Shown here one piece after another: positions 3,130-48,300 of a stretch of 64,000 nt of DNA; the stretch's first letter is position 1, and each line of letters opens with the position of its first letter. Position numbers and translations under genes: made by a program. This stretch comes from Dastarcus helophoroides (Eukaryota; Arthropoda; Insecta; Coleoptera; Bothrideridae): contig CM053327.1 in assembly GCA_028583605.1 (NCBI GenBank), positions 37,456,126-37,520,125 of the forward strand, given 5' to 3'. The notes below the pieces were generated by a model. That model was given only the letters and a program-made list of their open reading frames with translations. It did not search any database and had not been told where the DNA came from.

Positions 3130-3137
3130 TTCACAAT

Positions 3138-4342
3138 CAGTGTTGCCAGTGGTTCAATGCCAAATGTCGCTACCGGATCTCTAAAATTCCGCTACCGGCC
3201 GCTACCCACCACAGAAAGGGTAAAGAATTCTACAAAAAACTTGACCTTGAAAGATAAATACATATTTTTACCTTCGGGGGGTAATTAAAGCCGAAAATAT
3301 AAAAAACCTTTCGTTTACTTTTAAAATAAACATTGCTAACTAAGACTAAAAAACAACTACCGCCCTAGCTGCGAGCTATTTTAAATAGCTTCAAAGTCGT
3401 CGAGTAACATAGTATCTTCGGGAAAATACATATTTTTCCATAATGTAGGTTTAAATTTTGAATAGCCCGCCAATTGTTCGTTATTTGAAGTTGGCAGAAC
3501 AATGTCAACGTCAATTCGGGGTGACGCGAAGCATAGATGGCTCGACCGCGTCTTCGCGAAAAAGAAGAGTTAGTTGTTTTTGGAAATTAGAGTGTGTTGT
3601 TCGGGCTGGCTGAAGTTAGTCGCCAGTCCCGCGTTTTTTTGTATTTTCTTACATTAAAAAGTAATAAAGTTGTTGTAAAACCATTGGTGTTACGTTCGCT
3701 ACGACCTACCCCGTTTAAGCTCCCACAATAAGAAAAATAAAAATTAAATTTTCCAAAGATTTCTGCAATGATTGTGATTGACTTTCTACATGTATTGTGA
3801 TTGACTTTCTACACGTAAAATTGTTGTTACCTGCTCTCGGTCAGGTGACACCACTGAATAAATCGTCATGTAAGTTTTTTAACCTTGACTTGGTTTTTAA
3901 AATTAAAATGTAGAAATTTGGGCGCCCTCAAAATTCCGCTACTTTATCGTCGCCGCCGCTACGCATATATGTAATACTTCTATATGGCCAGCTCCCTATT
4001 CTCTTCAAGAGTTTGTTCCAACCAAATCCGATAAAGATGGAACATGGATAAATGGCGAGTATTGCGCATGAATTGAACAAAATGAACCAATCGCTACGCG
4101 CGGGTTAAAAGGGTGTTTTTGTTTGGCCGTGCACAGCTGAATTTGGCCATGCACAGATGATTTGTAACACCTGCGCATTGCGACTCATTAATTCGTGTGA
4201 AGGTCAGCGAGAAAGAGAAGTCTTTCCCATAAGAAACGAGGAACTGGCCATATAGAAGAAGTATTACATATATGCCGCTACGCCGCTAAATACTTCAAAA
4301 GTTGCTACCAATAGCGGAATTCCGCTACCACTGGCAACACAG
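3138..4342. mobile_element. Non-autonomous hAT-type element
   Basis: A 1205-bp element whose left end is CAGTGTTGCCAGTGG and whose right end is the reverse complement CCACTGGCAACACAG (one mismatch). It is flanked by a perfect 8-bp duplication, TTCACAAT, at 3130-3137 and 4343-4350. TIRs starting CAGTG with an 8-bp TSD are the hAT signature. CCGCTAC motifs lie just inside both ends (subterminal repeats). No long reading frame, so it depends on a transposase elsewhere. Another element is nested inside at 3964-4274. Confidence 0.9.
3964..4274. mobile_element. MITE nested in the hAT-type element
   Basis: A 311-bp insert with inverted ends CATATATGTAATACTTCT (left) and the matching reverse complement on the right, each continuing into TATATGGCCAG. 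An 8-bp duplication CCGCTACG flanks it at 3956-3963 and 4275-4282; the match can be read as up to 10 bp because the bases overlap. It interrupts the host element, so it is younger. Class uncertain: hAT- or Mutator-like. Confidence 0.8.
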
Positions 4343-9224: not shown

Positions 9225-9800
9225 GAAAGAACATCGATTAAAACAAAAAAAAATTTATAAATTTCGTCTTTTTTCTCGAAATTTCGATTTTTTTTTTCGA
9301 AATTTCGACTTTTTCTCTCGAAATTACGACTTTAATCTCGTTTGAACTTCAAGCTCGAAATTTCAACTTTCTTCTCGAAATTTTGACTTTAATCTCGAGA
9401 TTTCCTCTTTACTCTCGAGATTTCCACTTTAAAATCTCGACTTGTTCTCGAAATTTCGACTTTATCTCGCAATTTCGACTTTAATCTCGAAATTTCGACT
9501 TTTTTTGTCGAAATTTGGACTGTTTTCTTAATCGAAATTAAAGTTTTTCTTCAAGATGCTGAAATTTGGATTTTTGTAGCAATTTTTGATGCAAAATTTC
9601 GGTATTTTTTAAATAAAAATTTCGGATTTTCTTAAAATGCATATTATTTACTTTTTTGCCTAATCTTTCGCTTTTAAACAAGAAATTTTAATATTTTTTA
9701 ACGATCTTGATCTTTTTTCAATATTTTGGCCCAAGTTTTATCGATTGTAAGTCGACTTTCTCTCTGGAATTTTCTAATTTTTTTGGTAACTTTCTAGAGA
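9225..9800. repeat. CGAAATTTCGACTTT-rich repeat block
   Basis: Dense irregular tandem of a motif of about 15-20 bp around CTCGAAATTTCGACTTTAAT. A degenerate terminal-repeat remnant (AAAGAACATCGATTA) lies near 9229. It belongs to the dispersed family better seen at 17352-18341 and 49648-50124. Confidence 0.65.
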
Positions 9801-10118
9801 GCGCGAAATTAAAATTATGTATTGGGCACCCATGACTCAAGCAACGATTCTGTGTACCTTCGTGAGGACATTAGATAAAAAACCGGATTAAATAAAAGTT
9901 TTTATTCCCATTTTTATAATAAATTACAAAATATTATACAAAATATTTTAATGGAAAAATTGAGGAACAGATTTAGTATAATATCATTTTCGTGTTAGCT
10001 TTTCACGTCTTATTTCTTTGTAAAGGAATTTAGCTTCTGAAGATTCTTTGGTGTTTTCGTTGTAAATTTATGATGTCACTTTCGAGTTTTCGGCCAAAAA
10101 ATTTGATAAATAGCAGTG

Positions 10119-13100
10119 CTACCATTCCAACTGCGTCGGTTCTCCACCGGGGTATTCCCCTGATAAACAAGCGGTGCAATGTCCGACTTTATGGGGGTTT
10201 TTAGTCTTAATATCACTCCTTACGGCTTTAACGAGCCCTTCGATGCTCAAGTAATGTAAACTGTCAGCCCCTAAACGAAAAATCGTGATCAAAACCTAAC
10301 AGTTGGATAAAATTACGAGACTTACCCACGTGCTTGGCTAATTCTTTGGCGTTGAGTTTGTTGGCAATTAATTCCTCTCTAGTCGGTATGTTTATGCCCA
10401 TATAGCAGGGGTACAGCAATGGAGGACTCGCTACTCTAATGTGGACCTCTAGGGCGCCCGCATTTCGTAGTAATTTGATGATAGGTCCAATCGTGTTCCC
10501 CCTTACTATCGAATCGTCGATTAAAATGATTCGTTTTCCTTTGGCCATGCCCGCGAGCGCTCCAAACTTCTTAGCAACACTCAACTGTCTGAGTCTGTTA
10601 CTGGGCTGTATAAACGACCTACCAACGTACCGATTCTTACATAAAACCTCGCAGAATTGTATCCCGCTTTGTCTGGAGTAACCGTGCGCGGCCGCATTCC
10701 CGGATTCGGGCACCGAACTGACCAGATCGGCTTCCACTGGATGTTCTATGGCTAGTTGTTTGCCGCATTGCATTCTGACGTTGTAGACCATCTGTCCCTC
10801 GAAAATACTATCGGCTCTAGCGAAATAAACGTATTCGAATATACAGAAAGCTTGGATTTTGTTCTCGGGTCGTTCCACGATGTCTATGGTGCGGATGCCG
10901 TGTCTGGTCATTTCTATGATTTCGCCGGGGAATACTTCTCGGACGTACTGGGCGCCGATGGAGAGAAAGCCGCAGGATTCGGAAGAGACAACCCAGCCGA
11001 GGGCTTGCCTCGTGTCATCGCAATCTCCGTCGAGAGCTAATCAAGAAATTTGGGGGTCAAACAAATTTATTACATTTTACAATGAATTTCAAGAGTTGAA
11101 CTATGTTGTCCAACATTCTGATGCATTAAGGTGTTCTAGAGTAAGAGTTTTAAGAAAAAAAGTTGCGTTTTCGCTTTCTCTCACTTTGTTCAGTAAATGG
11201 AGTGGCATAAAATTCTGGGTTCAGATTAAACTTCCTAGTTACGTATTGCAATCAATTCCAGGTGACACGATACAAATTTGAGTTAAATAATAATATTTAA
11301 AGCTGTTTAAGGGAAGAATACTTACGTTCATTTAGTGGTAATATTTTTCCTAAACATAAGGGGCGATTCCCGTATGGATCCCTTATGGCGTAGATTTTGT
11401 TTTTTAACATAATAACTAAACTGTAACTCAAAGGAGCCAATCCCATAAAATGCTTGATTCTGGCTGGCCAATCTGGTCCATTGCTTTCCCCTTCAGGTGG
11501 ATTTAAGCAAAGCGCTTGTGTGATGAGCTCGCTGTCCGAATGTGTCGACAATCCTACGCCTCTACCTAAAACCTACGATGACCAAATTTAACCTTCTACG
11601 ACTGCGCGGCTTTAAACAAGTACCATTTTTCTTAGACTGTCACAGTTGACTAATTCGCCATTGTGGGCCACGGCTAAAGCCCCATGGGCCGTGTGGACTA
11701 CGAAAGGTTGACAGTTAACTTCCTCAGAAGCTGCACTGGTTGAGTATCTAGTGTGTCCTATGCCTATACTTCCCTTGAGTTTCTTTATAGCTTCATCATT
11801 GAATATGCTACTAATCATGCCCATGCCTTTGACTATGTTGAACGATTTGGCGCATTTACCTTCGCTCGTCACTATGCCGGCCGATTCTTGACCTCTGAAA
11901 ACATCCTTTACTGAATTCAGACGGAAATTACAATAACTGTAACCAGATGACGCGACAGATATGGCGATCGTGACGTCTATTAGGTTTAGACTGCTTAAAG
12001 ATTGATCAAAAGAAATAAAGCACCACAGCAACAAGCACCAAAACAAAATGTAAAAAATGCAAATAATATTAAATTTTCATTTCTTGTACATATTGAATGA
12101 TTTAGAAAAAAACTGAATATTTAAATTACATGTCATTATTCTAGTTAAATACTTCCATGTCTAAGTACAAAATAGAAAGCCGAAAAAAAAAAGGATCATT
12201 ATCACATAAAAATTCCTTAATACAGCCCTGTTTTCTGCTTCAATTATTATAAGCCGAACCTGGTCTTCGACAAGACGTCGTATAAGGACGCGATAGAATC
12301 ACTACAGGAAGAGAAAAGTTCATTTTTGACAATTTCATGGTCAGACTTAGATGTATTTTGCAAAAAAAAACCTTCCAGCTCGCTTAACTACATAAGAGTG
12401 CTAGCGGAGAATAGGAAGGGGAGCTCAAGTGACCCACCAAAAAACCCAAAAACTTAAAAAGAGTAGAAATTTAGAAAAAAGAGAAAGCCAAATGTTTTGA
12501 AATTAAAAAAATTAAACGAGAAAAAAGTCGAAATTTCAAAAAAGAACAAATTTGGAGAACAAAACGAAATTTTGAGAAATAAAGTGGCAGAAAAACCCGA
12601 ATTGTGGAGACAAATTGTTAACAAAAACGAACTTTGAAAAAAAAAGATGCAATTTCTACGGAAAAGCACAATTTACGAAGACTTAGAAGCGACATCGATT
12701 TTAAGAAAAAATTAGAAATTTCGACTTTTTTTCTCGACTTTAGTCTCAAAATTTCTAATCTTTTTTCGAAATTTCGATTTTTTTTTCTCGAAACTTCGAC
12801 TTTATAGTCATGAAATTTCCACTCTAAACTCTAAATTTCGGTATTTTTCTCGAAATGTCTCGAAATCTCCGGATTTTAACTTTAATCTCGAATTTCGACT
12901 ACTTTCTCGCGAAATTTTAACTTTAATCTCGGAACTTCGACTTTAAATTCGAAATTTCGACTTTTTTGTCGAAATTACCAGATTAAAGATTTCGACTTCA
13001 ATCGCGAAATTTCGACAAAAAAGGTTTAATCTCGAAATTTCAAGAAAAAAGGCGAAATCGCGATAATTAAAAATAGAAATTACTGAACGCACCCTACTAC

Positions 13101-15757
13101 CAACTGTCAATATTGTTTGCAAAGGGGAGTGGTGCGACGCAACTGTGACACGCCAATTTAACCATAGAGTAGTGAAATTTCGACTTTAACCTCGAAATTT
13201 CGAGAAAAAGGTGGAACTTTCAAGTTTAAAGTTGCAATTTCAAGAAAAATGTCGGAATTTCAAAAAGAACAAATTTTGAGAACAAAACGAAATTTCTAGA
13301 AATAAAGTGGTAGAAAAACCCGAATTTTGGAGAAAAATTGTTAGCAAAAACGAACTTTGAACAAAAAAAAATGCAATTTCCACAGAAAAGCACAATTTAC
13401 GAAGACGTAGAAGCGACATTGATTTTTCGAAAAAAATTTCGAATTTTTTCTGGAATTTGCGACTTTAGTCTCGAAATTTCGACTCTTTTTTTCGACATTT
13501 CGACTGTTTTTCCCGAAACTTCGACTTTATAATCATGAAACTTCCACTGTAAACTCTAAATTTCGATATTTTTCTCGAAATGTCTCAAAATCTCCGGATT
13601 TCAACTTTAATCTCGAATTTCGACTACTTTCTCGCGAAATTTTAACTTTAATCTCGAAATTTCGACTTTAAATTCGAAATTTCGACTTTTTTTTCGAAAT
13701 TTCGGCTTTATTTTTTCGAAATTTCGAGATTAAAGTCGAAATCTCAAGTTTAATCTCGAAATTTTAAGAAAAAAAGATAAAATCCTGATAATTAAAAATA
13801 GAAATTACTGAACGCAGCCTACTACCAACTGTCAATATTGTTGGCAAAGGGGAGTGGTGCGACGCAACTGTCACACACCAATTTAACCATAGAGTAATGA
13901 AATTTCGACTTTAACCTCGAAATTTCGAGAAAAAGGTGGAACTTTCAAGTTTAAAGTTGCAATTTCGAGAAAAAAGTCGGAATTTCAAAAAAGAACAAAT
14001 TTTGAGAACAAAACGAAATTTCGAGAAATAAAGTGGTAGAAAAACCCTAATTTTGGAGAAAAATTGTTAACAAAAATGAACTTTGAACAAAAAAATGCAA
14101 TTTCCACAGAAAAGCACAATTTACGAAGACGTAGAAGCGACATCGATTTTTGGAAAAAATAGAAATTTCGACTTTTTTCTGGAATTTGCGACTTTAGTCT
14201 CGAAATTTGGACTCTTTTTTCGAAATTTCGACTTTTTTTCCCGAAACTTCGACTTTATAATCATGAAACTTTCACTGCAAACTCTAAATCTCGATATTTT
14301 TCTCGAAAGGTCTTGAAATCTCCGGAATTCAACTTTAATCTCGAATTTCGACTACTTTCTCGCGAAATTTTAACTTTAATCTCGAAATTTCGACTTTAAA
14401 TTAGAAATTTCGACTTTTTTTTCGAAATTTCGGCTTTTTTTTTTAAATTTCGACTTTTTTTTCGAAATTTCGGCTTTTTTTTTTAAATTTCGAGATTAAA
14501 GTCGAAATCTCAAGTTTAATCTCGAAATTTTAAGAAAAAAAAGATGAAATCCTGATAATTAAAAATAGAAATTACTGAACGCGCCCTACTACCAACTGTC
14601 AATATTGTTGGGGAAGAAGAGTCGTGTGACGCAACTGTCACACATCAATTTAACCACAGAGTAATGAAATTTCGACTTTAACCTCAAAATTTCGAGAAAA
14701 AAGTAGAATTTTTAAATTTAAAGTTGCAATTTCGGGAAAAAAGTCGGAATTTCGAGATTAAAGTCGAAATTTCGACTTTAACTTCGAAATTTTTGATTTT
14801 TTTAAATTAACGTCTTTTCTACGCCTTCGTACAAATTTTAAAAAAGTCGACGTTTAGAAAAAAGTGAGATAAAAACAATTAAACTTTAATAAAAAAAAAG
14901 GTAAGATTTCAAGAATAAAGTTAAAATTTCGAGAATAAAATTAAAATTTCGAGAATAAAATTAGAATTAAAAAAAAGACTTCTTTGAGAATAAGCCGAAA
15001 TTTTAAGAAATAAAGTGAACATTTTCAAAAAATGTCGAATTTTGAAAAAAAAAGTTAAATTTTCAAAAAATATTTATTTCAACCTAATTTTAAAAAGATA
15101 CACTGAGAAAATAAACCAATTCGGGGAAAAAAGACATTTCCAGAAAGTCAATTTAAAAAAAAGTCACAATTTACAGAAAAATCCGAATTTTGAAACAAAA
15201 ACACATTTTGAAAACAAAACTGAAAAAAGTCGAAATTTCTACAAAAAAGCACAATTTATAAAAGTGTAAATTTCGCAATAACAGTGACAATGACAAAATA
15301 ATAATTAAAGAAGAGAATTTTGAGTATAGGGTTTAAAGTTCGCGGCTGTACACTTTCGTTTAATTACATGAGCCAGTGAACAAGTGCACTTCCTCGCCAA
15401 ACCTACGCCTATGGTACTAGAGGACATAGATAAACGTAATCATACAAATGTGACACAGGTGACACAGAACAATAAATCGTGGTAAATGATTAACCTGCTT
15501 CTCTGGTTTCGGTGGTTTAGTAATTAAATTTTAATCACTTACCTGTGTTGAAGGGCTACCAATCCCCAGCAGACGATTTGGGCTATTTCCAATTCCGTAG
15601 GCCATTCCCCCGTGCCGATAGCCCCAAAAACGCCACATTCGTGAGTCAAACCCGAGCTGACGGCGCCTCTTCCTTTTCGTTTTTCTATGGCGAAATTCTT
15701 CATATCCTCCTCCAGCGAGTATTCGGAGTCGTACTCGCTTTTGACCGCTTCCGCCAT
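10119..15757 (-). CDS. Prat: Amidophosphoribosyltransferase (glutamine PRPP amidotransferase)
   Basis: The first committed enzyme of de novo purine synthesis (PRPP + glutamine to phosphoribosylamine), cytosolic. Five exons on the minus strand: 15543-15757, 11624-11894, 11326-11572, 10326-11036 and 10119-10270. All junctions are GT-AG and keep frame, giving 531 residues against about 517 in human PPAT. Exon 1 has a propeptide of about 40 residues followed by [11 protein letters not shown]; the Cys (residue 41) is the glutaminase nucleophile exposed after processing. Later motifs are [46 protein letters not shown], the PRPP-binding loop [13 protein letters not shown], and GHCTACLSG, which holds C-terminal iron-sulfur ligands. 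Intron 1 is 3648 nt of repeats; other introns are 51, 289 and 55 nt. A TTTATT (AATAAA on the minus strand) is at 9901-9906. Divergent partner: Paics. Confidence 0.96.
12440..15270. repeat. Three tandem CGAAATTTCGACTTT-family units in Prat intron 1
   Basis: The core CTACTACCAACTGTCAATAT recurs at about 13098, 13820 and 14590, so units of roughly 720-770 bp are repeated in tandem. Each has GAAATTTCGACTTT microrepeats, a segment ACGAAGACGTAGAAGCGACA (or a variant) and the core. The block ends near 14815-14845 with TTTCTACGCCTTCGTAC, the inverted form of the terminal sequence, and then degenerate GAAATTTTAA-type sequence. Short open frames here are by-products of the repeat. Confidence 0.75.
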
Positions 15758-16887
15758 TTTTCTACGACTCTGCGGCTTAAAATGAGCAGAATGCGTTCGT
15801 TACATTAGCCTCTTTTAAGATAATAATATAAAAACATGTTGCTTAATTTGAACGAAACCCGAACGTTGATAACCTCTTGGAATCTCGTGGTTATTACGTT
15901 TTGAAATAGTGTGGAAAGTTTCATCACGTTTAAAACTAGTTCCTGTCTTGTTACTTCTGCCCCATTTTATTGAAATGTGTTGAGGTTCGCTTAATTAAAT
16001 TTATAAAATACTCTATGCTTCCTAGTTCCAAAGTAGGAAATGCATGTGTGAAAATTTCCCCTAAGATTAGGTAATATTTGGGATTTATTTAAAGTTTAGA
16101 CTATTTTCAAAATTCTTGCAATATGTAAAATAAAAATTACATTTCATAAATTCTTCATACAGTTTCATAAACTCGCGTCAATCACAAGAATTCAAGCAAG
16201 GACAGGTCATGAGTTCAAATCTATTATTTAAACAACAAGTCGGTGATAAGCCACAAAAAAAGAAACATGATGTTTAATGACGTACTTGAATCAAAACGAA
16301 TAAAATTGATAAAATAATGTTCAAATGATGTAATTTTTTACGCAAAAACTCGCGGTCACCATAGCAACGTCCTCAAACAAATCACTGAAACTTACCGGTG
16401 ATATTCTGTGTTTATGTCAAAATCTATGTGTACGTTTTGTGTGGTTTTGTTTATTTCGCGATTATTATTATTAATCGCGGTCCCTCAAAAAGTATTCTTT
16501 ATAGCGTCAGCTTCTTTTTCACTAGTGGCAATTTTTGCCTATTAATGATTTTAATAAACAGCAATAATAGTTAATCTTTTATATAACCATGTGGTGCCCC
16601 CACCTAGCCCTCTTTCATTACGGTGTTAAGAAACGTCGAAAAATATTTTCCATCATATATTGAACCGTGTCGCAACGCGGCGCCCCAACCGTTGATAACT
16701 TATTTGGCGCGATAAAGTCAAACAATATTTGAACGGTGAGGAGAAGGCGCGTGCGTAAATAAGAAGTTGTGTTTTTATCAGGGTCGCCAATTTTAATCTA
16801 AAATCGGTTCGGAAAAGTTCAATTCGATTCGGTGCGTTTTCGAGTGATATAGTTTTAATTGTTCGACGTTTTTAAATTGTTATTGCG
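15758..16887. promoter_or_regulatory. Shared divergent promoter region of Prat and Paics
   Basis: 1130 bp between the two start codons, which point away from each other. It must contain both 5' UTRs and promoters. A GC-richer patch (CAACGCGGCGCCCC and GGCGCGATAAAG, about 16670-16715) stands out from the AT-rich surroundings and is the best core-promoter candidate for Paics. No TATA box could be assigned with confidence. Confidence 0.55.
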
Positions 16888-19800
16888 ATGTCGGTCACGC
16901 AAGGTAGGTTAATTATGTTTTAGTGTGTTTGTCCCATAACCTAAAAAAGTTTATTAACGATTAATTGCATTCAGTTGTTGAATCGCTCGACAACGCTATC
17001 AAATTAAATTTTATTTGTAGTAGTAGTAATAGTTCTTTCAATTTGTTTAGAGCGTGGCGGGTAATTTCTTCCTAAAAATCGTAAAATAGATGCTTTACAA
17101 TTTACAGCGTGTCTAGAATTAATCGCTATCGGCATTGAACGCAACTGATTCCAGTGGCGTAGCCGGTTTATTTAATCATGAATATTTGGAATTTTATCAG
17201 AATTCATTAGGAAATTCTAGTTTATCATAAGTTTTTTTATGCGTCCCCGGCTGTGGTTGTATTTGCAACATAAATTCGATTATTTTTAAAGTAATTAATT
17301 TAAACGTGAAGTTAATTTTAGCTAGTTTTTTATGAGAAAATATTCCTATATTACGAAGGCGTAGAAAGGGCATGAATTTAAAATAAAGTGAGAAATTTCG
17401 AGTTTAAAGTCGAAATATCGACCTTTTTCTCAAATTTGACCAACATTGAAATACAAATCTTGTCCTCTTGAAACCAATAAAGATTAGAAAACACAACAAA
17501 GGTTGCTCTAACGCGTTTCAATAGCCAAGCGTATCTTTCTGGAGATGATAGCTTGGCTGTCGAACCGCGTTAGAGCAACCTTCTAATTTTTCTCAAAATT
17601 TCGGTTTCAATTTTAAACTCGAAATTTCTACTTTTTTCTCAAAATTTCAATTTTTATCTCGAAACTTCGAATTGAATCTCGAAACTTCGAATGGAATCTT
17701 GAAATGTCGACTTTTTTCTTAAAATTCCGAGATGAAAGTCGGAAGTCCGAAATTTCGACTTTATTCTCGAAATGTCGACTTTAATCGCGAAATTTCGACT
17801 TTAAATTCGGAATTTCGGCTTTAATCTCGAAAATTCGACTTTTTTCTCGAAAGTGAGATTTCAATACTCTATGGTTAAGTTAGGCAGATGACAGTTGCGT
17901 CCTACCACGCTCCTTTCACAACAATATTGACAGTTGGTAGTAGGGTGCGTTCGGTAATTTCTATTTTTAATTACCAAAATTTTGTCTTTTTTTTCTCGAA
18001 ATCTCGAGATTAAAGTTGAAATGTCGAGAAAAAAAGTCGAAATTTTGAGTTTGAGGTCGAAATTTCTCGATTAAAAGTCGAAATTTCGAATTAAAATACA
18101 AAATTTCTAATTAAAAGTCGAAATTTTCAATTAAAAGTCGGTATTTCGAAAATAAAGTTGAAATTTCGAGAAAAAAAAGTCGAAATTTCGAGAAAAAAAG
18201 TCGAAATTTCGAGAGTAAAGTCAAAATTTCGAGTTCATAGTCGAAAAATCGGAATTACGAGAAAAGGAACTCGAAATTTCGAGAAAAAGTCGAAATTCCT
18301 AAACATATTTTTTTTTATTCGATGTTCTTTCTACGCCTTCATTCTATATCACCCAAGCACAAATATTCGCATTTTTAGGATAAGTTAAAACACTCAAGGT
18401 AAATCAGATTCGAACTTTCTTGGTTAACTTTACGCAACATCATACTGTTAGATAATAAACTGAACGTACCTTAAGAAATTAAAAAATGGGTAACTCGCAT
18501 ATTTAGTGCTGGTTAACGTTACACTTTGAGACACTTTTAGAGGAAAAGAATGTCATTCCTTTAGAATTATTACACTTTTCTTATTTATGAAAGCGAGTCA
18601 TAAACTGATGGGGATTTACCTATCACTACTCTTGTAAGAAAGGCATTATCGCACTGTCAGCACATTAATTGGATATCGGTGTTGTTTATCAGCAAAATCA
18701 ACAATTATTTAATGATGAGGTCGTTTACTGACTGAGTTAACAAACTTAAAAGAAATGAGGGATCCACGTTTGAGAACGATGTTTTATCCACAGTTTATTT
18801 CACTTTCCACGGAGCCAGATATCTTGAGTGTTTGAAAATGAAACATTTTGATACTGTGTTACAGTGACGAAATATTAAAATGATTAAATTTTAAATAATC
18901 CAGTCGAAAATGGTTCCATGTAAAATGAGAGCCAAAATTATTTACGAAATTATGTTTTTTCGTTGACAATTTTCAATTTTAAAACCGAAAATTTGAATAA
19001 TTGAATGCTTGGGAAAATTTCGAAACGTCTACCTCCCTTTTATTCTCAACTTTTCACTGTAACTTACTTCTATTTAGGAAATTCACTTTAATTCAATTTT
19101 TTAACTTTAATTCAAGAAAAAATGTGATCGCGGGTACACTCCAATGTAGACATCCAGTAGTGTATTAACGGGGTTCTGGATGGCAAAACGGCGGGAAATT
19201 CAAATTGTCCAGCAGTTGCTTTGCCCGTGGTCCTGAATCTCATTTGGTACACTACTAGAGCCGCTGACATATTACCTTTTGCAGTTGGCGGTTACAAACT
19301 CGGCAAATTAATCATCGAGGGCAAAACCAAGCAAGTGTACGAAGTCCCGTCCGAGCCAGACAACTGCATTCTACTCAGCAAAGACAGGATAACCGCCGGC
19401 GATGGCGTCAAAGCCCACGATCTTAAAGGAAAATCGATTATTTCCAACAAGACCACTTGCAAAGTCTTCCAAATTTTGAATGATGCCGGCGTTAAGACAT
19501 CGTTCGTAAAATCGGTGGCCGATAATGCGTTCCTCTCGAAAAAATGCGAAATGATCCCCATCGAATGGGTAACACGTCGATTGGCCACCGGATCTTTCCT
19601 GAAGAGACATCCAGGCGTCGAGGAAGGGTATAGATTTTATCCGCCCAAACACGAGACTTTCTTCAAGGATGATGCCAACCACGACCCCCAGTGGTCCGAG
19701 GAGCAGATCATTTCGGCCAAATTCAAGGTCAACGGACTGGAAATCGGTATGTTAACCTTCATTATCATGTTTTCCTTTAACGTTCTTATCATATTCATAG

Positions 19801-22800: not shown

Positions 22801-23870
22801 CGAACTGCAAAATATTTGGTCGTGTTCAAACTCGAAATACGAACTGCAAAACTTTGAAAACTTTTAACCAGATACTTTCTATTTTAAGGTTAAAATTTCA
22901 ACTTGGATTATCAGGAGCCCTGACAATAAAGTCTCAATAATGTTGCTTTATAATCTGAATGCACCTAAAACATATTTTTGGGGAAAATCGCTGCTTAACT
23001 GCCAATTTAAACTAAATTATTAATTAAATTAAATTTAAATGTAATACTATTTAAAATTAGAGTACTTCACTATAATCGAAGGCGCCACAACGTACGTACT
23101 ATTTACTTTAAAAGGAATATCCAACCAAATTGGTTTAACGAATGAGATAAGACGCTTTCTGTGGTTGGCTTCATCAAATTTCAATTTTTTTTCAAGGTGA
23201 ACTCCTCGTCGCCGACGTCATAGATTCTGACAGTTGGCGCCTATGGCCCTCTGGCGACAAACGCCTAATGGTCGATAAGCAAGTCTACAGGAACCTCACC
23301 AACGTCACATCATCCGACTTAGACACGGTGAAACGCAACTTCGAATGGGTAGCCGAACAACTCGACCATCTAATACCAATCAACGACCACTTAATCGTCA
23401 TCCTTATGGGCAGCCCCTCCGACAAAGACCACTGTCTCTCCATCAAAAAACACTGCGAAGCTCTCGGCCTTAACGCCGTCCTGCGCGTGACCTCTGCTCA
23501 TAAAGGCACCGAAGAAACGCTCAAGATCGTGCGCTACTACGAATCCTTGCAGCTCAAAGTTGTCTTCATAGCAGTCGCCGGCCGTTCCAACGGTTTAGGG
23601 CCTGTCGTTTCGGGCAATTCCGCCTTCCCTGTTATTAACTGTCCGCCAGTTAAAGCCGATAATGTAGAACGGGACATTTGGTCGAGTTTGAGCGTTCCTT
23701 CTGGTCTCGGGTGCTCAACGGTGGTTTATCCGGAGGCTGCCGCTCTGAACGCAGCTCAAATCGTCGGTTTGACCAATTACTTGATTTGGAGCAAGTTGAG
23801 GTCCAAGCAGCTGGATAATTACGTCACTTTGGCCAAAGCCGATAAAGCAGTCAAAGCGGAAAAGCAATAG
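16888..23870 (+). CDS. Paics: Bifunctional SAICAR synthetase / AIR carboxylase
   Basis: A two-domain cytosolic enzyme of de novo purine synthesis that converts AIR to CAIR and then SAICAR. Four exons: 16888-16903 (MSVTQ only), 19285-19746, 22236-22361 and 23197-23870. All are GT-AG and in phase, giving 425 residues, the same as human PAICS. The N-terminal synthetase domain shows [63 protein letters not shown] and WRLWPSGD. The C-terminal carboxylase shows [20 protein letters not shown] and [22 protein letters not shown] lies at 23891-23896. Intron 1 (2381 nt) and intron 2 (2489 nt) are packed with transposons. The head-to-head pairing with Prat matches the known vertebrate PPAT/PAICS arrangement and suggests co-regulation. 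Confidence 0.97.
17352..18341. mobile_element. MITE-like element with CGAAATTTCGACTTT core, Paics intron 1
   Basis: The left end has ACGAAGGCGTAGAAAGGGCA. The right end has its inverted counterpart (CGATGTTCTTTCTACGCCTT, near 18320-18340). Inside are tandem GAAATTTCGACTTT microrepeats, the core CAATATTGACAGTTGGTAGT on the opposite orientation (about 17920), and a hairpin of a second MITE family at 17443-17590. Confidence 0.7.
17443..17590. repeat. Diverged relative of the MITE at 695-838, with hairpin
   Basis: The first about 95 bases resemble the left half of the element at 695-838 (ACAAATCTTGTCCTC, AAAACACAACAAAGG, AATAGCCAAG). A long imperfect hairpin follows, pairing GGTTGCTCTAACGCG with CGCGTTAGAGCAACC. 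It is nested inside the 17352-18341 element. Confidence 0.55.
18346..19284. other. Rest of Paics intron 1
   Basis: No feature recognised apart from the acceptor CTTTTGCAG at 19276-19284. Confidence 0.4.
20046..20530 (+). mobile_element. 3' fragment of a non-LTR retrotransposon reverse-transcriptase gene
   Basis: The frame from 20150 reads [40 protein letters not shown] and [15 protein letters not shown]. After a stop at 20396-20398 and a frameshift it reads [13 protein letters not shown]. This is the conserved segment near the end of the Jockey/RTE/CR1-type polyprotein (the LxSLExRR...LWNSLP region). It has stops and no start, so it is a 5'-truncated dead copy in Paics intron 2. About 47 bases of the same segment (GATGCTCACAGGAACTAATA) are repeated at its 5' side at 20046-20092. 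Confidence 0.75.
20930..21938. mobile_element. Non-autonomous hAT element in Paics intron 2
   Basis: 1009 bp with perfect 15-bp terminal inverted repeats CAGGGCTTCGAACCG and an exact 8-bp duplication CTATTAAA at 20922-20929 and 21939-21946. Just inside both ends are GGTTTTCGGTTTCGTTCCGG-like subterminal repeats. There is no transposase frame. A textbook hAT MITE. Confidence 0.92.
22362..23196. other. Paics intron 3, nothing recognised
   Basis: 835 nt of AT-rich sequence without identifiable genes or repeats, bounded by GTTAGT and TTTTTCAAG splice sites. Confidence 0.5.
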
Positions 23871-23896: not shown

Positions 23897-24259
23897 GATA
23901 AAAGCATTTTGGTAACATTTTATTTATTTTTAAAGTCACTCGATTTGAGGACAAAACACCTGAAATTTTTTCCTTAAGTTTTTTCTCTTTGCATCAAAAT
24001 GATAAGAAAAAAGTTAATTTTGTAAGGAAATTTTCGAGTTTAAAATCAGAATATAAAACAAAGTCAAAGTTTAATATAAAATCAATATCTTGGAAGAAAA
24101 AATCAAATTTCGGAGCATGAATTTGTAGTCTAGGTTGCATTCTTCTTGCATACGACATGGCGACATGGCGATGGCCATAGTTTCTCTATGGGCCAGTAGG
24201 TGGTAGTACTAAAGAGTCACTCGCTTGACGCTTGTGAATGCTTTAGTACTTACTTGTCG

Positions 24260-24359
24260 GAACATTTATTAGCATACGAGTTGGATATACCAAACTGACG
24301 AGATCTAACAAGATCGAAACCGGTATTTGGTTTCCAAACTTCGAATCTAATAAATGTTC
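24260..24359 (+). ncRNA. Hammerhead ribozyme, copy 1
   Basis: The parts occur in type I order: stem I 5' strand ACCAAA, core CTGACGA, stem II GATC-TAACAA-GATC, core GAAA, stem III AC-CG-GT, cleavage triplet GTA ending at 24325, stem I 3' strand TTTGGT. Stem I extends outward through GTTGG/CCAA to a perfect 13-bp outer helix (GAACATTTATTAG at 24260 with CTAATAAATGTTC ending at 24359). All invariant hammerhead residues are present. Stem III has only two pairs and a two-base loop, as in the newt satellite ribozyme, which works best as a dimer. Activity is untested. Confidence 0.82.
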
Positions 24360-24635
24360 AAACCTATTGGTCTGTGCATTATAGAATCCTTGTCCTCTGG
24401 GAACTCTCCTAGAGAGCAACCGTTTCGCTAGGTGGCAGTGTTTCAACTGTTGAGTAGTTCAGCTACCTATGATTCCACTATACACGCCTGGAGGGCTGCA
24501 TGAATTTGTAGTCTAGGTTGCATTCTTCTTGCATACATTGTTGGCGATGGCCATAGTTTCTCTATGGGCCAGTAGGTGGTAGTACTAAAGAGTCACTCGC
24601 TTGACGCTTGTGAATGCTTTAGTACTTACTTGTCG

Positions 24636-24735
24636 GAACATTTATTAGCATTCGAGTTGGATATACCAAACTGACGAGATCTAACAAGATCGAAACCGGT
24701 ATTTGGTTTCCAAACTTCGAATCTAATAAATGTTC
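24636..24735 (+). ncRNA. Hammerhead ribozyme, copy 2
   Basis: The same fold and core as copy 1; the only difference seen is one base in the stem I internal loop (AGCATTCGAG for AGCATACGAG). Predicted cleavage is after A24701. With copy 1 it would release a 376-nt linear RNA spanning 24326-24701. Confidence 0.82.
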
Positions 24736-24760
24736 AAACCTATTGGTCTGTGCATTATAG

Positions 24761-25036
24761 TGTTAGAAATATATAAGAAAATACAAGCGTACCGATATCA
24801 AATTATATTTCGCTTCAATAACTAATGAAATATCGCCAAATAACATATGAGCGGCGTGTTATCCGAGAGCCTCGAATTGAATGACAACATCAACTTTTTA
24901 ATCTGCTTGCAAAAAAGGTTCCAAAAGTACGCTTCAGCGATAACGTTGTTGTCCTCTTCAATTCAGGCGACCGGCGGCGGCTCTAGCAACACAAACATCC
25001 GATAACGAAACCATTATAATCGGCTCTTTTCTAACA
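24761..25036. repeat. LTR (3' LTR in coding orientation)
   Basis: 276 bp, TG...CA termini, identical by eye to 28551-28826. Confidence 0.93.
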
Positions 25037-25135: not shown

Positions 25136-26370
25136 CCATGGTGGAGTCCTCAGCCATCCACCTGGCTCTACCACTATCGGGACAGAGAACAAATAAACAA
25201 ACAATTGCATAAAAAAAAACATCGTGGAGACCGCAGCCATCCACTTGGCTCTACCACTATCGGGACAGAGACCAAATAAACAAACAATTGTACAAAAAAA
25301 AACATCGTGGAGACCGCAGCCATCCACTTGGCTCTACCACTATCGGGACAGAGACCAAACAAACAAACAATTGTACAAAAAAAAAAAACATCGTGGAGAC
25401 CGCAGCCATCCACTTGGCTCTACCACTATCGGGACAGAGACCAAATAAACAAACAATTGTACAAAAAAAAAACATCGTGGAGACCTCAGCCATCCACTTG
25501 GCTCTACCACTATCGGGACAGAGACCAAATAAATAAATAATTGCATAAAAAAAAACATCGTGGAGACCGCAGCCATCCACTTGGCTCTACCACTATCGGG
25601 ACAGAGACCAAATAAACAAACAATTGTACAAAAAAAAACATCGTGGAGACCGCAGCCATCCACTTGGCTCTACCACTATCGGGACAGAGACCAAATAAAT
25701 AAACAATTGTATAAAAAAAAACATCGTGGAGACCTCAGCCATCCACTTGGCTCTACCACTATCGGGACAGAGACCAAATAAATAAACAATTGTATAAAAA
25801 AAACATCGTGGAGACCTCAGCCATCCACTTGGCTCTACCACTATCGGGACAGAGACCAAATAAATAAATAATTGCATAAAAAAAAACATCGTGGAGACCT
25901 CAGCCATCCACTTGGCTCTACCACTATCGGGACAGAGACCAAATAAATAAATAATTGCATAAAAAAAAACATCGTGGAGACCGCAGCCATCCACTTGGCT
26001 CTACCACTATCGGGACAGAGACCAAATAAATAAATAATTGCATAAAAAAAAACATCGTGGAGACCGCAGCATCCACTTGGCTCTACCACTATCGGGACAG
26101 AGACCAAATAAATAAATAATTGCATAAAAAAAAACATCGTGGAGACCTCAGCCATCCACTTGGCTCTACCACTATCGGGACAGAGACCAAATAAATAAAT
26201 AATTGTATAAAAAAAAACATCGTGGAGACCTCAGCCATCCACTTGGCTCTACCACTATCGGGACAGAGACCAAATAAATAAATAATTGCATAAAAAAAAA
26301 CATCGTGGAGACCGCAGCCATCCACTTGGCTCTACCACTATCGGGACAGAGACCAAATAAACAAACAAAG
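25136..26370. repeat. Tandem array, about 15 copies of an 83-bp unit, inside the LTR element
   Basis: The unit contains ATCGTGGAGACC, CAGCCATCCACTTGGCTCTA, CCACTATCGGGACAGAGACC, AAATAAACAAACAATTG and a run of A. ATCGTGGAGA-type starts fall at 25221, 25304, 25390, 25474, 25557, 25640, 25723, 25805, 25888, 25971, 26054, 26136, 26219 and 26302, with a diverged first copy from 25136. Units differ mainly by the A-run length and AAACAAAC versus AAATAAAT. It lies between the integrase gene and the 3' LTR. Its many overlapping open frames are artefacts of the period. Confidence 0.93.
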
Positions 26371-26377
26371 ATTTTCA

Positions 26378-27370
26378 TCATTGTAACTCACCTAATACAT
26401 TCTGAGTTACATCATCGTCCTCTTCCAGAAACTCTAAAATATTCTTCATATCACAAGTTAGTGGCCACTGTGACGGCCTTAACTGCTCCTTAGCGGCTTT
26501 GGTGACTACATTTGTTCCAACCTTTTTAATCTCATAACGGCTTTGCGCCAAACATTTAACAATTTCGTAAGGGCCTAAGAACTCATAATCGCTCTTGCTT
26601 ATGTGCATTTGGGAATCTCGGTGCATCAGCACAAAGTCACCAACAGAGTAACTGACAGTATCCCTTCGCTTCCGATTAACGCCTTCTAGACTAGGCGCTG
26701 ATGATAACCTCTCAGCTACACGCTGCCTGTCTAATTTTCTGCTGCGTACTGGATTCATATTCAAACTAACTGTCTTCAATAGAGCTTGAATTAAAGACGT
26801 CCAGCTCTTGATTCCTAACAAAAGTTGCAAAGGTGCAGCTTGTGTGGATTTTTGTATTGTCGTATTCAGATCTAACTGAATCTTCCATAGTCCACTTGGC
26901 CATTCTGACTAAACTCTTGTCTCGATTCTCAAAAGATTTCTTATTGTTCTCATGTATCTCTCAACCTAGCCATTACCATCCGGCGTGACGAAATGATACT
27001 CAATTTTCCACTCACTCAAATATTTCGGAAATGTCGTGTTCTTGAAAGATGTCCCAGCATCCATAATTATTGTTTTTGGTGTACCAAACAAGGCTAATGC
27101 ATTTTGAAGCTTCTCACGAGTCTCGGAAGTTGTGACCGACTTCATGGGCAAAAGAATGCAATATTTGGTAAATGCATCTACTATGACCAGTATGTGCTCG
27201 TGACCATCAGATGAAAGAGGAAGGGGCCCTAGACAATCCATATGCAATGTATCGAAGGGATCAGTGGGTTTTTCTATGAGATTTATAAATCCTTGTAAGG
27301 GACATATCCTTGTTTTCTTTACTGCACACACCGCACAATGTTTGTTGTAGCGTTTTACAAAATTTCTCAT
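26378..27370 (-). pseudogene. Retrotransposon integrase, interrupted
   Basis: 26966-27370 reads NKHCAVCAVKKTRICPLQGF, then FDTLHMDCLGPLPLSSDGHE, FTKYCILLPMKS and TIIMDAGTSF: the second half of an HHCC zinc domain, followed by the core with the first two acidic residues (MDCLG, IMDAG). Just upstream HVGIEKT is followed by a TGA where the family has Trp. The frame stops after HFVTPDGNG and the C-terminal part continues at 26378-26830 (VSYSVGDFVLMHRDSQMH, FLGPYEIVKCLAQSRYEIKK). Two breaks are therefore visible. Confidence 0.8.
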
Positions 27371-29738: not shown

Positions 29739-29820
29739 CGCTGCGGACAGGATTCGAACCTGTGCGGGTAGAACCCAATGGATTTCAAGTCCATCTCCTT
29801 AACCACTCGGACACCGCAGC
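29739..29820 (-). tRNA. tRNA-Ser (anticodon TGA)
   Basis: 82 nt on the minus strand. Acceptor arms GCTGCGG and CCGCAGC pair fully, with discriminator G. The D-arm region starts TGTCCGAGTGGTTAAGG (A box). The anticodon arm ATGGACTTGAAATCCAT has loop CTTGAAA, giving anticodon TGA. A long variable arm (TGGGTTCTACCCGCA) marks a class II tRNA, and the T arm holds GGTTCGAATCC (B box). A T7 run about 6 nt downstream fits Pol III termination. No CCA is encoded and there is no intron. Confidence 0.95.
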
Positions 29821-30543: not shown

Positions 30544-30715
30544 CCACAGAGCATAGAAATTTCGTACTCGAGTCAAAATTCCGAGTTCAAAGTTTAATCA
30601 AACTCGACATTTTGAGATCAAAGTCGAAAATTTGTCTTAAAATTCAAGATTTTGAAAAAAGTCAAGGTGAAAAGTGTATTCTTCATGGTGAACTCTTATT
30701 GACTGGAAATATTAT

Positions 30716-30873
30716 GTTTATTAATTTTATTTAACATTTCTTCGGCCCAGTTTGGAAATATTTAAATTTTTATTGTTTGTTGACAATATTCTAAACAGTT
30801 TTTGAAATATGACCACGTGATATTTAAATATTTCCAAACTGGGTCGAAGAAATGTTAAATAAAATTAATAAAC
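30716..30873. repeat. Near-perfect palindromic repeat
   Basis: The left arm includes AACATTTCTTCGGCCCAGTT and TGGAAATATTTAAAT. The right arm is the reverse complement with one or two changes (AACTGGGTCGAAGAAATGTT). The spacer is about 50 bp. A reverse-orientation relative with only one arm is at 41733-41880. Confidence 0.8.
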
Positions 30874-31159
30874 GTCAAAAGTGTAATTTCAACTTTAAAG
30901 TCGAAATTTTGAGATTGAAGCATCCAAACGTCCAAGACAATTATGATAAATTATTTAAAAAGACTAACTTATTCGGGTATTTTTAAGGAGTTTATAGTGA
31001 CATTACGGAGCAGTGTACGAACACAATGTAATTGTTTGTAAAAATATATTTCATATTATCATTTACATTATTATGCAAAATTATTCCCTAAATTGCACAA
31101 TTGTCAAATCTGCTGCGGTAAATCACTGAATTAAACGCACTATCACTGAGAATTTTCCT

Positions 31160-40320: not shown

Positions 40321-41225
40321 TTTAAAGTTACAATGTCGACAGTTGAAATTTCGACTAATCTGGTAATTTTGATTTTTTTGTCTAAATTTCATTATTTCCC
40401 AAATTTTGGTTATTAAAATTTAATATTACTGTACGAATGTCACTACCAAATGTTAGTATTTTATGGAAAAAAAGCAACTAAGCAGAAAGAAACTGTCATT
40501 TTTCCTAACTTAATCGTAAAGTATAAAAATGTCAAGATTAAAACCCGAAATTCAAAGTTAAACTTTCAAGATTGAAGCCGAACTTTCGACTTTACATTCG
40601 AAATTTGTCGAAAAAAATTCCAACTTTTGGAATTAAAGTAAAAATTTCGACTTTAAACTTGAAAAAAAAATCGAAACTTCAGGATTAAAGTCGAAAGATC
40701 TAATTTTTTCAAATCCATTTTTGTTCTGTACGAAGGTGTAGAAAGGCATCGATTTAAAAAAAAACGCATTTAGAAGTTTGGATTTTTTTTTCGAAATTTC
40801 GACTTTAATCTCGAAATTTTGATTTCTTTTCTCAAAATTTCGTCTTTAATCTTGAAATTTCGTCTTTAATCTTGAAATTTCGACTTTAAAATCAAAATTT
40901 CGATTGCAAACTCAAGATTTCGAATTTTTTCTCGAAATTTTGTCTTTATTCTTGAAATTTCGACTTTAAACTCAAAATTTCAATTGCAAACTGTAGATTT
41001 CGAATTTTTTTCGAAATTTCGACTTTAATATCGAAATATCGACTTCAGACCCGAAATTTCGACTTCTTTCTCAAAATTTCCACTTTAATCTTGAAATTTC
41101 GACTTAAACTCTAAATTTCGACTTTTTTTTTTCGAAAAAAAGTTTGTATTTTGGTAATTAAAAATTGAAATTACTGAACGTACCCTACTGCCAACTGTCA
41201 ATATTGTTGGAAAGGAAAGTGGTGG
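40320..41225. repeat. CGAAATTTCGACTTT-family copies
   Basis: Microrepeats from about 40340, a diverged core near 40436, the terminal motif TACGAAGGTGTAGAAAGGCA at about 40733, then a second run ending in the core CTGCCAACTGTCAATATTGT at about 41190. At least two juxtaposed copies. Confidence 0.7.
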
Positions 41226-41334: not shown

Positions 41335-41722
41335 GTCACTTCATGACAGTTCACAAATTAAGAGGTTAGTTTATTTTACATAGAATAGGAATAATCAAAA
41401 ATAGAAGACCAAAAATTAGATATGGAAAAATAAAAATTTGTTATTTTGATAAATTAGGAAAATATAAAAAAATACATAAAAAAGGTTGTAGCACTGGACA
41501 TCGATGTTTCGCTCTCATTTGAGCTCGTCAGCAGTGCATAACATGGAAAGGGAACAATGAGGAAGAAATACTTAAAAATAAAAATTTTTTTAAAATATAA
41601 TAATTTATCAAAATAACAAATTTTTATTTTTCCATATCTAATTTTTGGTCTTCTATTTTTGATTATTCCTATTCTATGTAAAATAAACTAACCTCTTAAT
41701 TTGTGAACTGTCATGAAGTGAC
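41335..41722. repeat. Perfect 122-bp inverted repeat (foldback) with a 144-bp loop
   Basis: 41335-41456 (starting GTCACTTCATGACAGTTCAC) is the exact reverse complement of 41601-41722. The loop holds a hammerhead ribozyme on the minus strand. No target-site duplication was found at the outer ends. Perfect arms mean a young element, gene conversion between the arms, or an assembly hairpin artefact. Confidence 0.88.
41485..41542 (-). ncRNA. Hammerhead ribozyme (second type), minus strand
   Basis: Read on the minus strand: stem I GCACTG, core CTGACGA, stem II GCTC-AAATGA-GAGC, core GAAA, stem III ACAT-CG-ATGT, triplet GTC, stem I CAGTGC. All invariant residues are present and every helix pairs perfectly. 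The helix continues GTT/AAC beyond an internal loop. Cleavage is predicted between 41497 and 41496. Stems differ from those at 24 kb, so it is a separate family. Hammerheads of this kind are known in Penelope-like elements and animal retrozymes; no reverse transcriptase is seen here. Confidence 0.82.
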
Positions 41723-41732
41723 GTTTTCAATA

Positions 41733-41890
41733 AATTTAAATATCACGTAGTCGCATTTCAAAAACTGTTTAGAAAATTGTCAACAAACCATAAAAATTTA
41801 AATATTGCCAAACTGGGCCGAAGAAATGTTAAATAAATTGAAAAAAACATAATATTTCCGATCAATAAGGGTCTACCATGAAAAATATTA
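41733..41890. repeat. Reverse-orientation relative of the palindrome at 30.7 kb
   Basis: Contains AAACTGGGCCGAAGAAATGT, ATTTAAATATCACG and CAACAAACCATAAAAATTTA. These match the 30688-30825 sequence in reverse complement at roughly 85-90% by eye, without the second palindromic arm. Confidence 0.65.
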
Positions 41891-45300: not shown

Positions 45301-48300
45301 CGTGGACAAAACTAAACAGTTTACAGATTCTACTTCCTTACGAATGAAGGTTTCTAAGCGAAGAAGTCTCCCCACCAAAGGGGTTGAAGGGAGTCCGGAA
45401 GAGTCGCAATTATTTGAAACGTTTCTAAAGCTGATATGCCTTCTTGGTCTCCGAAAACTCAAATTCTAAGTGACACGAAAAGCGAACGAGAGGAAGAAAT
45501 CTCAATGGATAAACATACTAGAGTAGAAAAATGTTCCTAAACAGCTTGCAAATTCAACTTTCTTACGAAAGGATCGTTGCGAGTTAAGGAATTCTCACCA
45601 CCAAGATGGTTGAAGAGAGTGCGGAAGGGTCGAACTTATTAGAAAACCTTTTTAAAGTTGATTCGCACTCCTCGCTTCCCGAATAATCAACTTCTAAGGA
45701 AAAGTGACGAACAGGAAGAATCCTTAACAAATAAACTTTTTTTTCAGTAATAAATCAGTTGGGGTGGACAATTACCCCAAACAACTTTACAGATTCAAAT
45801 TTCTTACTAACAGGATTTTCTGGGCCTAAGAAATCTTACAGCTAAAGATGTTTTGAATAATGAATCAGTCGGTAGAAAAAGTCAGGAGGAACTTAAAGGT
45901 TCCACTTTCTTACGAACGGACTTTTCAAAGCCAAGAAATGTCATCACCAAGAGGCTCAAAGAGTCGAAATCATCGGAAAAAAATCCTGACACCAATGCCC
46001 TTTTTACTTCCCCTCAGATGACTCGAATTCTAACAAGAAAAAGTGGCACCAAAAGCGAAAAAAACAAAACTGTGGTTGGTGCAAATTTTTTGAATAATAG
46101 ATCAGTTAGAGTTAGGAAATCATGCAATCAGCTAAAAGATCCTCGTTCATTAGAAGCGCAAAGAAATTTTGTCCCCAAAAGCATTGAAGAAGGATCAGAA
46201 AAACGTTCAACACCCGATGAACTTCTTTTTTCGCTTCTGAGAACTCAAATTAGGGAAAATCACGCCAAAAACGAAAAAGATGATTTTGGAGGCAAGAAAT
46301 CAGTTAGGGTGGAAAACATTTATCAAAGAACCAGCAATTTCATTGAAAACAATGTTTACTTCACATGGAAAATGCACCATGAAGACGGTTGAAAAGAGTC
46401 CAAAAGAGTCAGAATGGTGGGAAAAAAATTCTAAACCTGATGTGCCTCTTCCTGCGCCTCTCCACATTCAAATTCAGATTACAGGAAAATGACACCAAAA
46501 GCGATTTCGTAAACAGTAAATCAGTTAGGTTGGAAAAATGTGGCAAACAACTTGCAGATGTGACTTTATTACGAACGATGCTTATTCCGCAAGGAAAATG
46601 CACCACCAAGACGGTTGAAGAGTGTCTTGAAGAGTCAGAATGGTCGGGAAAAAATTCTAAATCTGATGCGCTTCTTCCTTCGCCTGTGAAAACTCAAATT
46701 CAGATTATGAAAGATGACACCAAAAACGATTTTGTAAACAGACCAGTCAGGATGGAAAAATGTGGCAAACGGACGGCAGATTCGGATTCACTAAGAACGA
46801 TGTCTACTTCGCAAAGAAAATGCACCACCAAGAGCGTTACAAGATAACCCCAAAAAGACCAAATGGTGGGAAAAAAATTCTACACCTCATACGCTTGTGT
46901 CTTTGCCTCTGAAATCTCAAATTCGAATTAGGGAAAATGGCACCAAAAGCGAAAACGATGATTTTGTAAACAATCAATCAGTTAGTTTGGAAAAATGTGG
47001 CAAACAGTTTGCAGATTCGACTTCACTAGGAATGATGTCTAGTTCGCAAAGAAAATGCACCACCAAGAGTGTTCAAAGTAACCCCAAAGAGACCAAATGG
47101 CGGGAAAAAAATTCTACATCTCATATGCTTGTGTCTTTGCCTCTGAAATCTCAAATTCGAATTAGGGAAAATAACACCAAAATGGAAAACGATGATTTTG
47201 TAAACAATGAATCAGTTAGTTTGGAAAAATGTGGCAAACAGCTTGCAAATTCGACTTCACTAGGAACGATGTCTACTTCGCAAAGAAAATGCACCACCAA
47301 GAGCGTTCAAGATAACCCCAAAGACACCAAATGGCGGGAAAAAAATTCTACACCTCATACGCTTGTGTCTTTGCCTCTGAAATCTCAAATTCGAATTAGG
47401 GAAAATGACACCAAAAGCGAAAACGATGATTTTATAAACAGTGAATCAGTTAGTTTGGAAAAATGTGGCAAACAGCTTATAGATTCGATTTCACTAGGAA
47501 CGATGTCTACTTCGCAAAGAAAATGCACCACCAAGAGCGTTCAAGATAACCCCAAAGAGACCAAATGGCGGGAAAAATATTCTACACCTCATATGCTTGG
47601 GTCTTTGCCTCTGAAATCTCAAATACGAATTAGAGAAAATGACACCAAAAGCGAAAACGATGATTTTGTAAACAATCAATCAGTTAGTTTGGAAAAATGT
47701 GGCAAACGGCTTGCAGATTCGACTTCACTAGGAACGATGTCTACTTCGCAAAGAAAATGCACTACCAAGAGCGTTCAAGATAACCCCAAAGAGACCAAAT
47801 GGCGGGAAAAAAAATCTACACCTCATACGCTTGTGTCTTTGCCTCTGAAATCTCAAATTCGAATTAGGGAAAATGACACCAAAAGCGAAAATAACGATTT
47901 TGTAAACAACAAAACAGTTAGTGAGGAAAAATGTGGCGAAACAGCTTGCAGATTCGACTTCATTACAAACGGTGCTTACTCTACCAAGAAAATGCACCAC
48001 CAAGAGGGTTGAAGAGAGTTATGAAGAGTCGGAATGGTGGGAAAAAAATTCGAAACCTGATACGCTTTCTTTTTCGCATCTGAAAACTCAAATTGGAATT
48101 AGGGAAAACGACACCAAAAGCGATTTTGTACACAGTGAAGAATCTGAAGTGGAGAAATGCAGCAAACAGTTACAAACAAAGCGGCGAAAGAAACCCACCA
48201 TCATAAAGGTTAAAAAAAGTGTGGAAGAGTCAACGTTTTTGGAAAAACATTCTGAAGCTGGTACTCTTCTTCCTTCGCAAGAAATAAGTCGAATTCGAAA

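Follow-up and report, generated by a model that had tools for sequence, protein, structure and literature searches.

Two-armed insertions of a hammerhead retrozyme family in the beetle Dastarcus helophoroides suggest priming from both strands of a palindromic target

Introduction

The beetle Dastarcus helophoroides carries a young, high-copy family of tandem, hammerhead-bearing repeats with a unit of 379 nt, here called family A. Most of the copy clusters that we examined share one layout: two arms set head-to-head, ending at two fixed points of the unit and flanked as a whole by a single target duplication, in a target site whose consensus is palindromic. We read these inserts as the work of a non-autonomous retrozyme, in which an RNA circle would be the template, both overhangs of a staggered cut would act as primers and the enzyme would be of the Penelope type. 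We give this reading a probability of about 0.7.

Why does the layout matter? In the accessible sections of the account of animal (non-LTR) retrozymes by Cervera & de la Pena 2020 (PMC7229834), the mobilising enzyme is given as a candidate only. With its two fixed start sites, palindromic target and priming from both strands, the insert anatomy offers a concrete, testable answer on two points: the enzyme behind the movement of animal retrozymes, and the route from an RNA circle to a tandem in the chromosome. It also bears on the inverted copies and the one-sided tail of Penelope-like elements. The accessible parts of PMC7229834, PMC7761336 and PMC11722881 do not describe a two-armed layout. 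A literature search confined to main texts, few of them from subscription journals, found nothing that joins retrozymes with twin priming, or hammerhead ribozyme, head-to-head and retrotransposon. The two-armed retrozyme layout may be new to the literature.

The retrozyme locus and its hammerheads

The window (the whole 64,000-nt stretch of DNA analysed) holds a one-armed copy of family A, 1.7 units long, on the plus strand at 24115–24760. Its first unit (24115–24497, plus strand) measures 383 nt against the family consensus of 379 nt, and the second (24498–24760, plus strand) is partial. The left end lies at unit position 1, while the right end, at 24760, lies at unit 266, one of two fixed ends (p2) that recur throughout the family. 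The other fixed end (p1, unit 33–49) corresponds to 24147–24163 of the first unit on the same strand, a placement derived from the ends of other copies. Identity in the direct repeat is 100% over 219 nt and again over a block of 39 nt. No ORF of at least 150 aa overlaps 24115–24760, as befits an animal retrozyme, and no target duplication was found around this copy, which starts 245 bp past the end of an AIR-carboxylase ORF (23268–23870).

The initial annotation had described two identical hammerhead cores here, with every invariant base, three paired helices, a 13-bp outer stem and cleavage sites 376 nt apart. Most of this stands. The plus-strand cores at 24289–24331 and 24665–24707 are identical over 43 nt (ACCAAA / CTGACGA / GATC-TAACAA-GATC / GAAA / CCGG / TA / TTTGGT), and with their extended stems I they occupy 24260–24359 and 24636–24735. 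Cleavage is predicted after 24325 and 24701, a spacing of 376 nt. The outer stem is formed by pairing of 24260–24272 with 24347–24359, and again of 24636–24648 with 24723–24735. The invariant core, helices I and II, an open helix I and a NUH cleavage triplet are all present. What did not hold is the third helix: helix III of the monomer consists of one A–U pair closed by the palindromic loop CCGG, and is not a stable helix.

How secure is the assignment? The Rfam models to which the initial annotation had looked for confirmation gave it in part. In the whole window nothing hammerhead-like reached the gathering threshold, a tRNA being the sole match, but at E ≤ 10 within 24050–24820 RF02275 (Hammerhead_HH9) matched both cores with 34.4 bits (E 8.3e-7) against a gathering score of 52. 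A strict motif scan found three cores in the window and three in 150 Markov windows of equal length; the third (41531, minus strand) differs from the cores at 24 kb in its helix sequences. The predicted folding energy of the 106-nt hairpin is −38.1 kcal/mol (z −7.75), a value reached by 0 of 200 shuffles. Viral and prokaryote contigs, scanned for exact matches to the core, contained none (0 and 0).

Since ACCGGT is self-complementary, helix III can pair only with a second unit; with one pair and a CCGG loop in the monomer, the predicted cleavage would probably need a dimer of units. The same one-pair helix III and palindromic tetraloop occur in amphibian satellite-2 and in the axolotl HHR_Amex1, which cleaves well only as a dimer (PMC7229834). 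The axolotl ribozyme differs in sequence and host from the window core, for which cleavage is predicted from sequence. The best predicted folds of monomer and circle pair the core ACUG with CGGU, a non-catalytic arrangement that counts against activity of a lone unit. We infer type I hammerhead self-cleavage at this locus with that qualification.

A high-copy family

Is the locus at 24 kb one of many? The genome searched comprises 539 Mb in 50 contigs. Of 2017 first-look candidates found with the element as query, 40 were scored and yielded 121 matching stretches; with shorter queries the first-look candidates numbered 1116 and 1123. These three candidate numbers convey scale, not copy number. 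The consensus of 14 aligned monomers is 379 nt long with 42.7% GC, and several monomers lie 0–1 base from it. Of 140 laps, 132 have all 12 core positions scored intact. In four of the remaining eight the only change is to C at the cleavage base, a substitution tolerated by hammerheads.

These properties are those of an animal retrozyme. Published animal retrozymes are tandem units of 170–400 nt with low GC and a type I hammerhead, present in many copies with duplications longer than 4 bp, in genomes that also hold Penelope-like elements (PMC7229834). Family A falls inside that size range and below 50% GC, its copies are dispersed and near-identical, and 29 of 31 complete two-armed copies are flanked by duplications of 9–15 bp. 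The annotation of the locus as a retrozyme unit is thus supported, the locus being one copy of a young, high-copy family.

Anatomy of the insertions

The window copy has a single arm, and the two-armed layout is invisible from it. From L001–L050, ten overlapping or re-fetched loci (L004, L005, L014, L016 and L025–L030) were excluded, and the remaining 40 yielded 43 clusters of at least 100 bp, smaller clusters being uncounted. Head-to-head arms occur in 33 of the 43 and another order in 10; because the copies examined are the best-scoring ones, these proportions are not genome-wide. In the head-to-head clusters the left arm is antisense and the right arm sense, so that the 3′ side of the RNA faces outward on both. 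Each arm is a tandem run of up to nearly five laps. Omission of L041 (a 155-bp remnant) and L050 (whose right arm enters a run of N) leaves 31 complete copies.

In all 31, one outer end falls at unit 33–49 (p1) and the other at 266–274 (p2). Two further copies, L083 and L084, were obtained with a different query: L084 has the p1/p2 ends, bringing the count to 32 of 33, whereas L083 has its outer ends at 268 and, judged by eye, near unit 13, and is flanked by a duplication of 11 bp. The same site is used at both ends in none of the 33. The 10 clusters that are not head-to-head have their 3′ ends at p1 in three cases and at p2 in seven (L041 by eye). One locus, L049, has retrozyme pieces at 1871–2558 and 3056–3343 of the locus that stand tail-to-tail, about 500 bp apart, and end at p2 and p1; it does not fit the head-to-head rule.

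Twenty-nine of the 31 inserts are enclosed as a whole by a single duplication; the other two have none. The duplication measures 12 bp in 14 copies, 11 bp in six, 13 bp in four, 10 bp in two, and 9, 14 and 15 bp in one each. Mean arm lengths are 674 nt on the p1 side and 733 nt on the p2 side (range 84–1865), and the two are weakly anticorrelated (rho −0.37, p 0.04). At the inner joins, 1–6 nt are shared in 14 copies, none in five, extra bases intervene in eight and a longer overlap is found in four. The inner ends come within 20 nt of mirror points in 4 of 31, about what chance gives on a 379-nt circle. The two arms are joined at arbitrary points.

What does this say about priming? One duplication bounds two arms that began at their outer ends and were copied from the same RNA strand, which argues for priming of reverse transcription by both 3′ overhangs of a staggered cut. 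The overhang ends mostly share 1–3 bases with the unit at the start sites.

The consensus of the target site is TTnAAC-N12-GTTnAA. T at −5 occurs in 21 of 29 cases in each half-site taken separately (pooled 42 of 58, p 4e-9), and C at −1 in 13 of 29 in each (pooled 26 of 58, p 1e-7). The consensus is symmetric as a dimeric nuclease would make it.

Where on the template do p1 and p2 lie? Folded as a circle (−135 kcal/mol), the 379-nt unit places them along one interrupted helix (25–29/265–269 and 33–37/256–260), at its two 3′ edges. Among the 379 positions, the best partner of site 38 is 269; 1.4% of all position pairs score as well as 38/270. Each cDNA would thus start beside one strand of the same helix and read into it. 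The prediction is a single fold of a single sequence, and we regard it as supporting, not decisive.

One template, several times around

If both overhangs prime, do they copy the same molecule? Variants are shared between the arms of one insert in 183 of 480 comparisons and between the laps of one arm in 256 of 618; between inserts the figure is 6.3%. Of 205 private variants covered by at least two laps, 177 are confined to a single lap, as later mutations would be, and 16 recur in all laps that cover them. Both arms could have displayed 136 private variants, and eight do occur in both. Five of the eight are present in all laps that cover them: 7/7 laps in L031, 5/5 in L010 and 3/3 in each of L002, L034 and L042. 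Since laps and arms share private variants, both arms derive from a single template that was read several times. The simplest such template would be a circle, and a linear array of identical units could also serve.

The latter possibility, double priming by a Penelope-type enzyme on a linear multimer transcribed from an already homogeneous tandem, is the alternative that deserves most attention, although we consider it unlikely. A tandem left by an earlier rolling event would be homogeneous, which is compatible with private variants in every lap. Moreover, the Penelope-like system studied in vitro by Frangieh et al. 2024 (PMC11167929) used unprocessed RNA as its main substrate, and hammerhead mutants had no effect on insertion. 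On the other hand, the variants run through all laps and both arms of five inserts with total lengths of up to 2670 bp, for which one circle is the simplest template, and such units are known to form circles in coral, mussel and axolotl (PMC7229834).

The preferred reading, the doubly primed circle, would run as follows. Hammerheads would cut a tandem transcript, probably as dimers, into units of about 379 nt, which would be ligated into RNA circles. A Penelope-type enzyme, probably a dimer, would cut both strands of the AT-rich palindrome TTnAAC-N12-GTTnAA, so that a 3′ overhang of about 12 nt remains on each side. These would pair through a few bases with the circle at p1 (33–49) and p2 (266–274), and both would prime rolling reverse transcription on one circle. 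Joining of the two DNA arms at arbitrary points would give a head-to-head, multi-lap insert between target duplications, and failure of one arm would give a one-armed copy such as that of the window.

A more specific version can be put forward, for which we judge the chances about even: a dimeric Penelope-type reverse transcriptase-endonuclease, seated on the two-sided helix, would cut the palindrome about 12 bp apart and double-prime one retrozyme circle, the helix mirroring the symmetric target. If true, this would explain why Penelope elements optionally carry their tail on one end only.

Which enzyme?

The genome is well supplied with candidates. GIY-YIG endonuclease sequences gave 91 matches among 150 scored of 1070 candidates, and of 12 such loci compared, 11 fall into two related groups with L071 apart. 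At L077 an RVT_1 match (28.1 bits, E 1.9e-6, just below the cut-off of 29.6) lies about 600 nt before the GIY-YIG match, which contains a stop. Such Penelope-like elements are abundant here. Their own copies can be two-armed: L072 is head-to-head, with outer ends 38 nt apart (in the coordinates of L075) and a 9-bp duplication, and L074 is a less clean example. By eye, the sequence to the right of the L011 retrozyme looks like the 3′ terminus of the second Penelope-like group (L073, L079–L082), and the insert may therefore lie within such an element.

In the published work, both strands are cut and extended by purified Penelope-like protein, and extension begins at two neighbouring internal sites of the RNA, with no reported difference in start site between the strands. 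The protein has a preference for AT-rich DNA and has been modelled as a dimer (PMC11167929). Penelope inserts have an inverted pLTR, duplications of 8–10 bp and a tail that is optionally on one side (PMC3846280). Family A works in a similar mode, with inverted copies, a duplication and two alternative 3′ ends. The Penelope-like mobilisation that the initial annotation held probable is therefore favoured by the insertion anatomy and by the same-genome genes, short of proof. The retrozyme ends have no likeness to the 3′ end of the Penelope-like family to which L075 belongs; 366 and 305 of 500 shuffles scored as well.

Several observations count against the doubly primed circle as a whole. They are the non-catalytic best folds, L083, the duplications missing from 2 of 31 copies and from the window copy, L049, the lack of likeness to the Penelope end, the published hammerhead-mutant result, and a second hammerhead family (below) that lacks the target motif.

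Could a LINE-type reverse transcriptase have made the inverted arms by twin priming? Twin priming yields inverted 5′ pieces in LINE-1 inserts. LINEs are also listed as possible helpers by retrozyme authors (PMC7229834). However, both ends of a family A insert start at fixed internal sites of the RNA, with no involvement of a poly(A) or 3′ RNA end, and the symmetric palindrome and fixed stagger better suit a double-strand cutter. We consider a LINE origin very unlikely. Fold-back self-priming of a single cDNA, put forward in 2013 for Penelope elements of rotifers on the strength of palindromes where the inverted parts meet (PMC3846280), is more improbable still, because the inner ends are not mirror points beyond chance and the outer ends differ from each other while both abut one target duplication. 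An ordinary satellite whose hammerheads are inactive relics, and whose spread was due to recombination and inversion, would account for the tandem layout, the sub-gathering Rfam score and the non-catalytic best folds, but it is scarcely credible given a single duplication round the whole insert in nearly all complete copies, the fixed ends, the near-identity of monomers and the intact cores.

Comparison with known elements

How does family A stand beside the elements that it most resembles? The likeness to animal retrozymes has been set out above; head-to-head arms, paired fixed ends and a palindromic target are features of family A that the accessible text of PMC7229834 does not describe for them. 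With Penelope-like elements it shares head-to-head inverted copies, duplications and two start sites, of which theirs leave one end tailed, together with AT-rich targets, hammerheads and the cutting and extension of both strands (PMC11167929, PMC3846280). Unlike them, family A has no reverse transcriptase or GIY-YIG endonuclease of its own, its 379-nt unit lacking any ORF of 150 aa, and its inserts are multi-lap. Its start sites lie 230 nt apart on the unit and are adjacent only in the predicted fold, whereas those of Penelope-like elements are separated by 30–40 nt. Plant LTR retrozymes are likewise ribozyme-bearing noncoding repeats thought to move via circular RNA, but have type III hammerheads, LTRs with a PBS and PPT, 4-bp duplications and a proposed Gypsy-type helper (PMC7761336).

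A second hammerhead family

Another hammerhead-bearing sequence, family B, is also present in the window. A head-to-head copy on the minus strand (41335–41887) has arms of 122 bp, inverted and matching at 100% (41335–41456 and 41601–41722); its end at 41887 is its p2 and the other end is truncated. Its hammerhead (41474–41546, minus strand) matches RF02275 with 39.2 bits (E 1.6e-8), below the gathering score of 52. A short head-to-head fragment, with no strand assigned, lies at 30677–30875 and is bordered by a direct repeat of 9 bp (AAAAGTGTA). Two genome searches gave 2624 and 1595 first-look candidates.

We sampled 21 loci (L051–L070 and L019), 14 of which have both outer ends. L059 and L060, which lie 25 kb from each other, share one duplication and were counted once, giving 13 events. 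The paired ends (391–402 and 423–431 on the joined reference) stand opposite one another in 12 of the 13, the exception being L058, which has the same end twice; duplications of 9–17 bp are found in 10 of 13. The TTnAAC motif was not seen in this sample, T at −5 occurring in 9 of 22 and C at −1 in 5 of 22, and family B may therefore be served by another enzyme. Since multi-lap arms were not seen in family B, we do not claim it as a retrozyme. A MITE reading of the inverted repeat at 41.4 kb, suggested by its identical 122-bp arms, was dropped, as L019 and the fragment at 30.7 kb have unequal outer ends and duplications; the literature matches listed included none that combined hammerhead and MITE. 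A hairpin discerned by eye at the family B ends is no more stable than shuffled sequence, of which 105, 45 and 152 of 300 folded as low.

Other features of the window

Pfam domains in the window are PARP, SAICAR synthetase, AIR carboxylase, EF-hand, CDC20/Fizzy and DNA polymerase B. An 83-bp tandem array of about 15 copies with 96% matches (25137–26368) begins 376 bp to the right of the retrozyme. Next to it, a 150-aa ORF (26378–26830, minus strand) has no Pfam match and presumably resembles the tail of an LTR-retrotransposon integrase. A tRNA gene with a long variable arm lies at 29739–29820 (minus strand; Rfam 63.5 bits).

A degenerate repeat of 20 bp, centred on the palindrome GAAATTTC (AAATTTCGACTTTTTTCTCG and related forms), is dispersed in many arrays, at 9259–18297, 40791–41125, 63494–63998 and elsewhere in the window. 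Coding-looking long tandem repeats, with periods of 234–268 and 468, are found at 46503–48123 and 54058–55805, and the stretch that contains them leads to the DNA polymerase B domain at 60494–60979.
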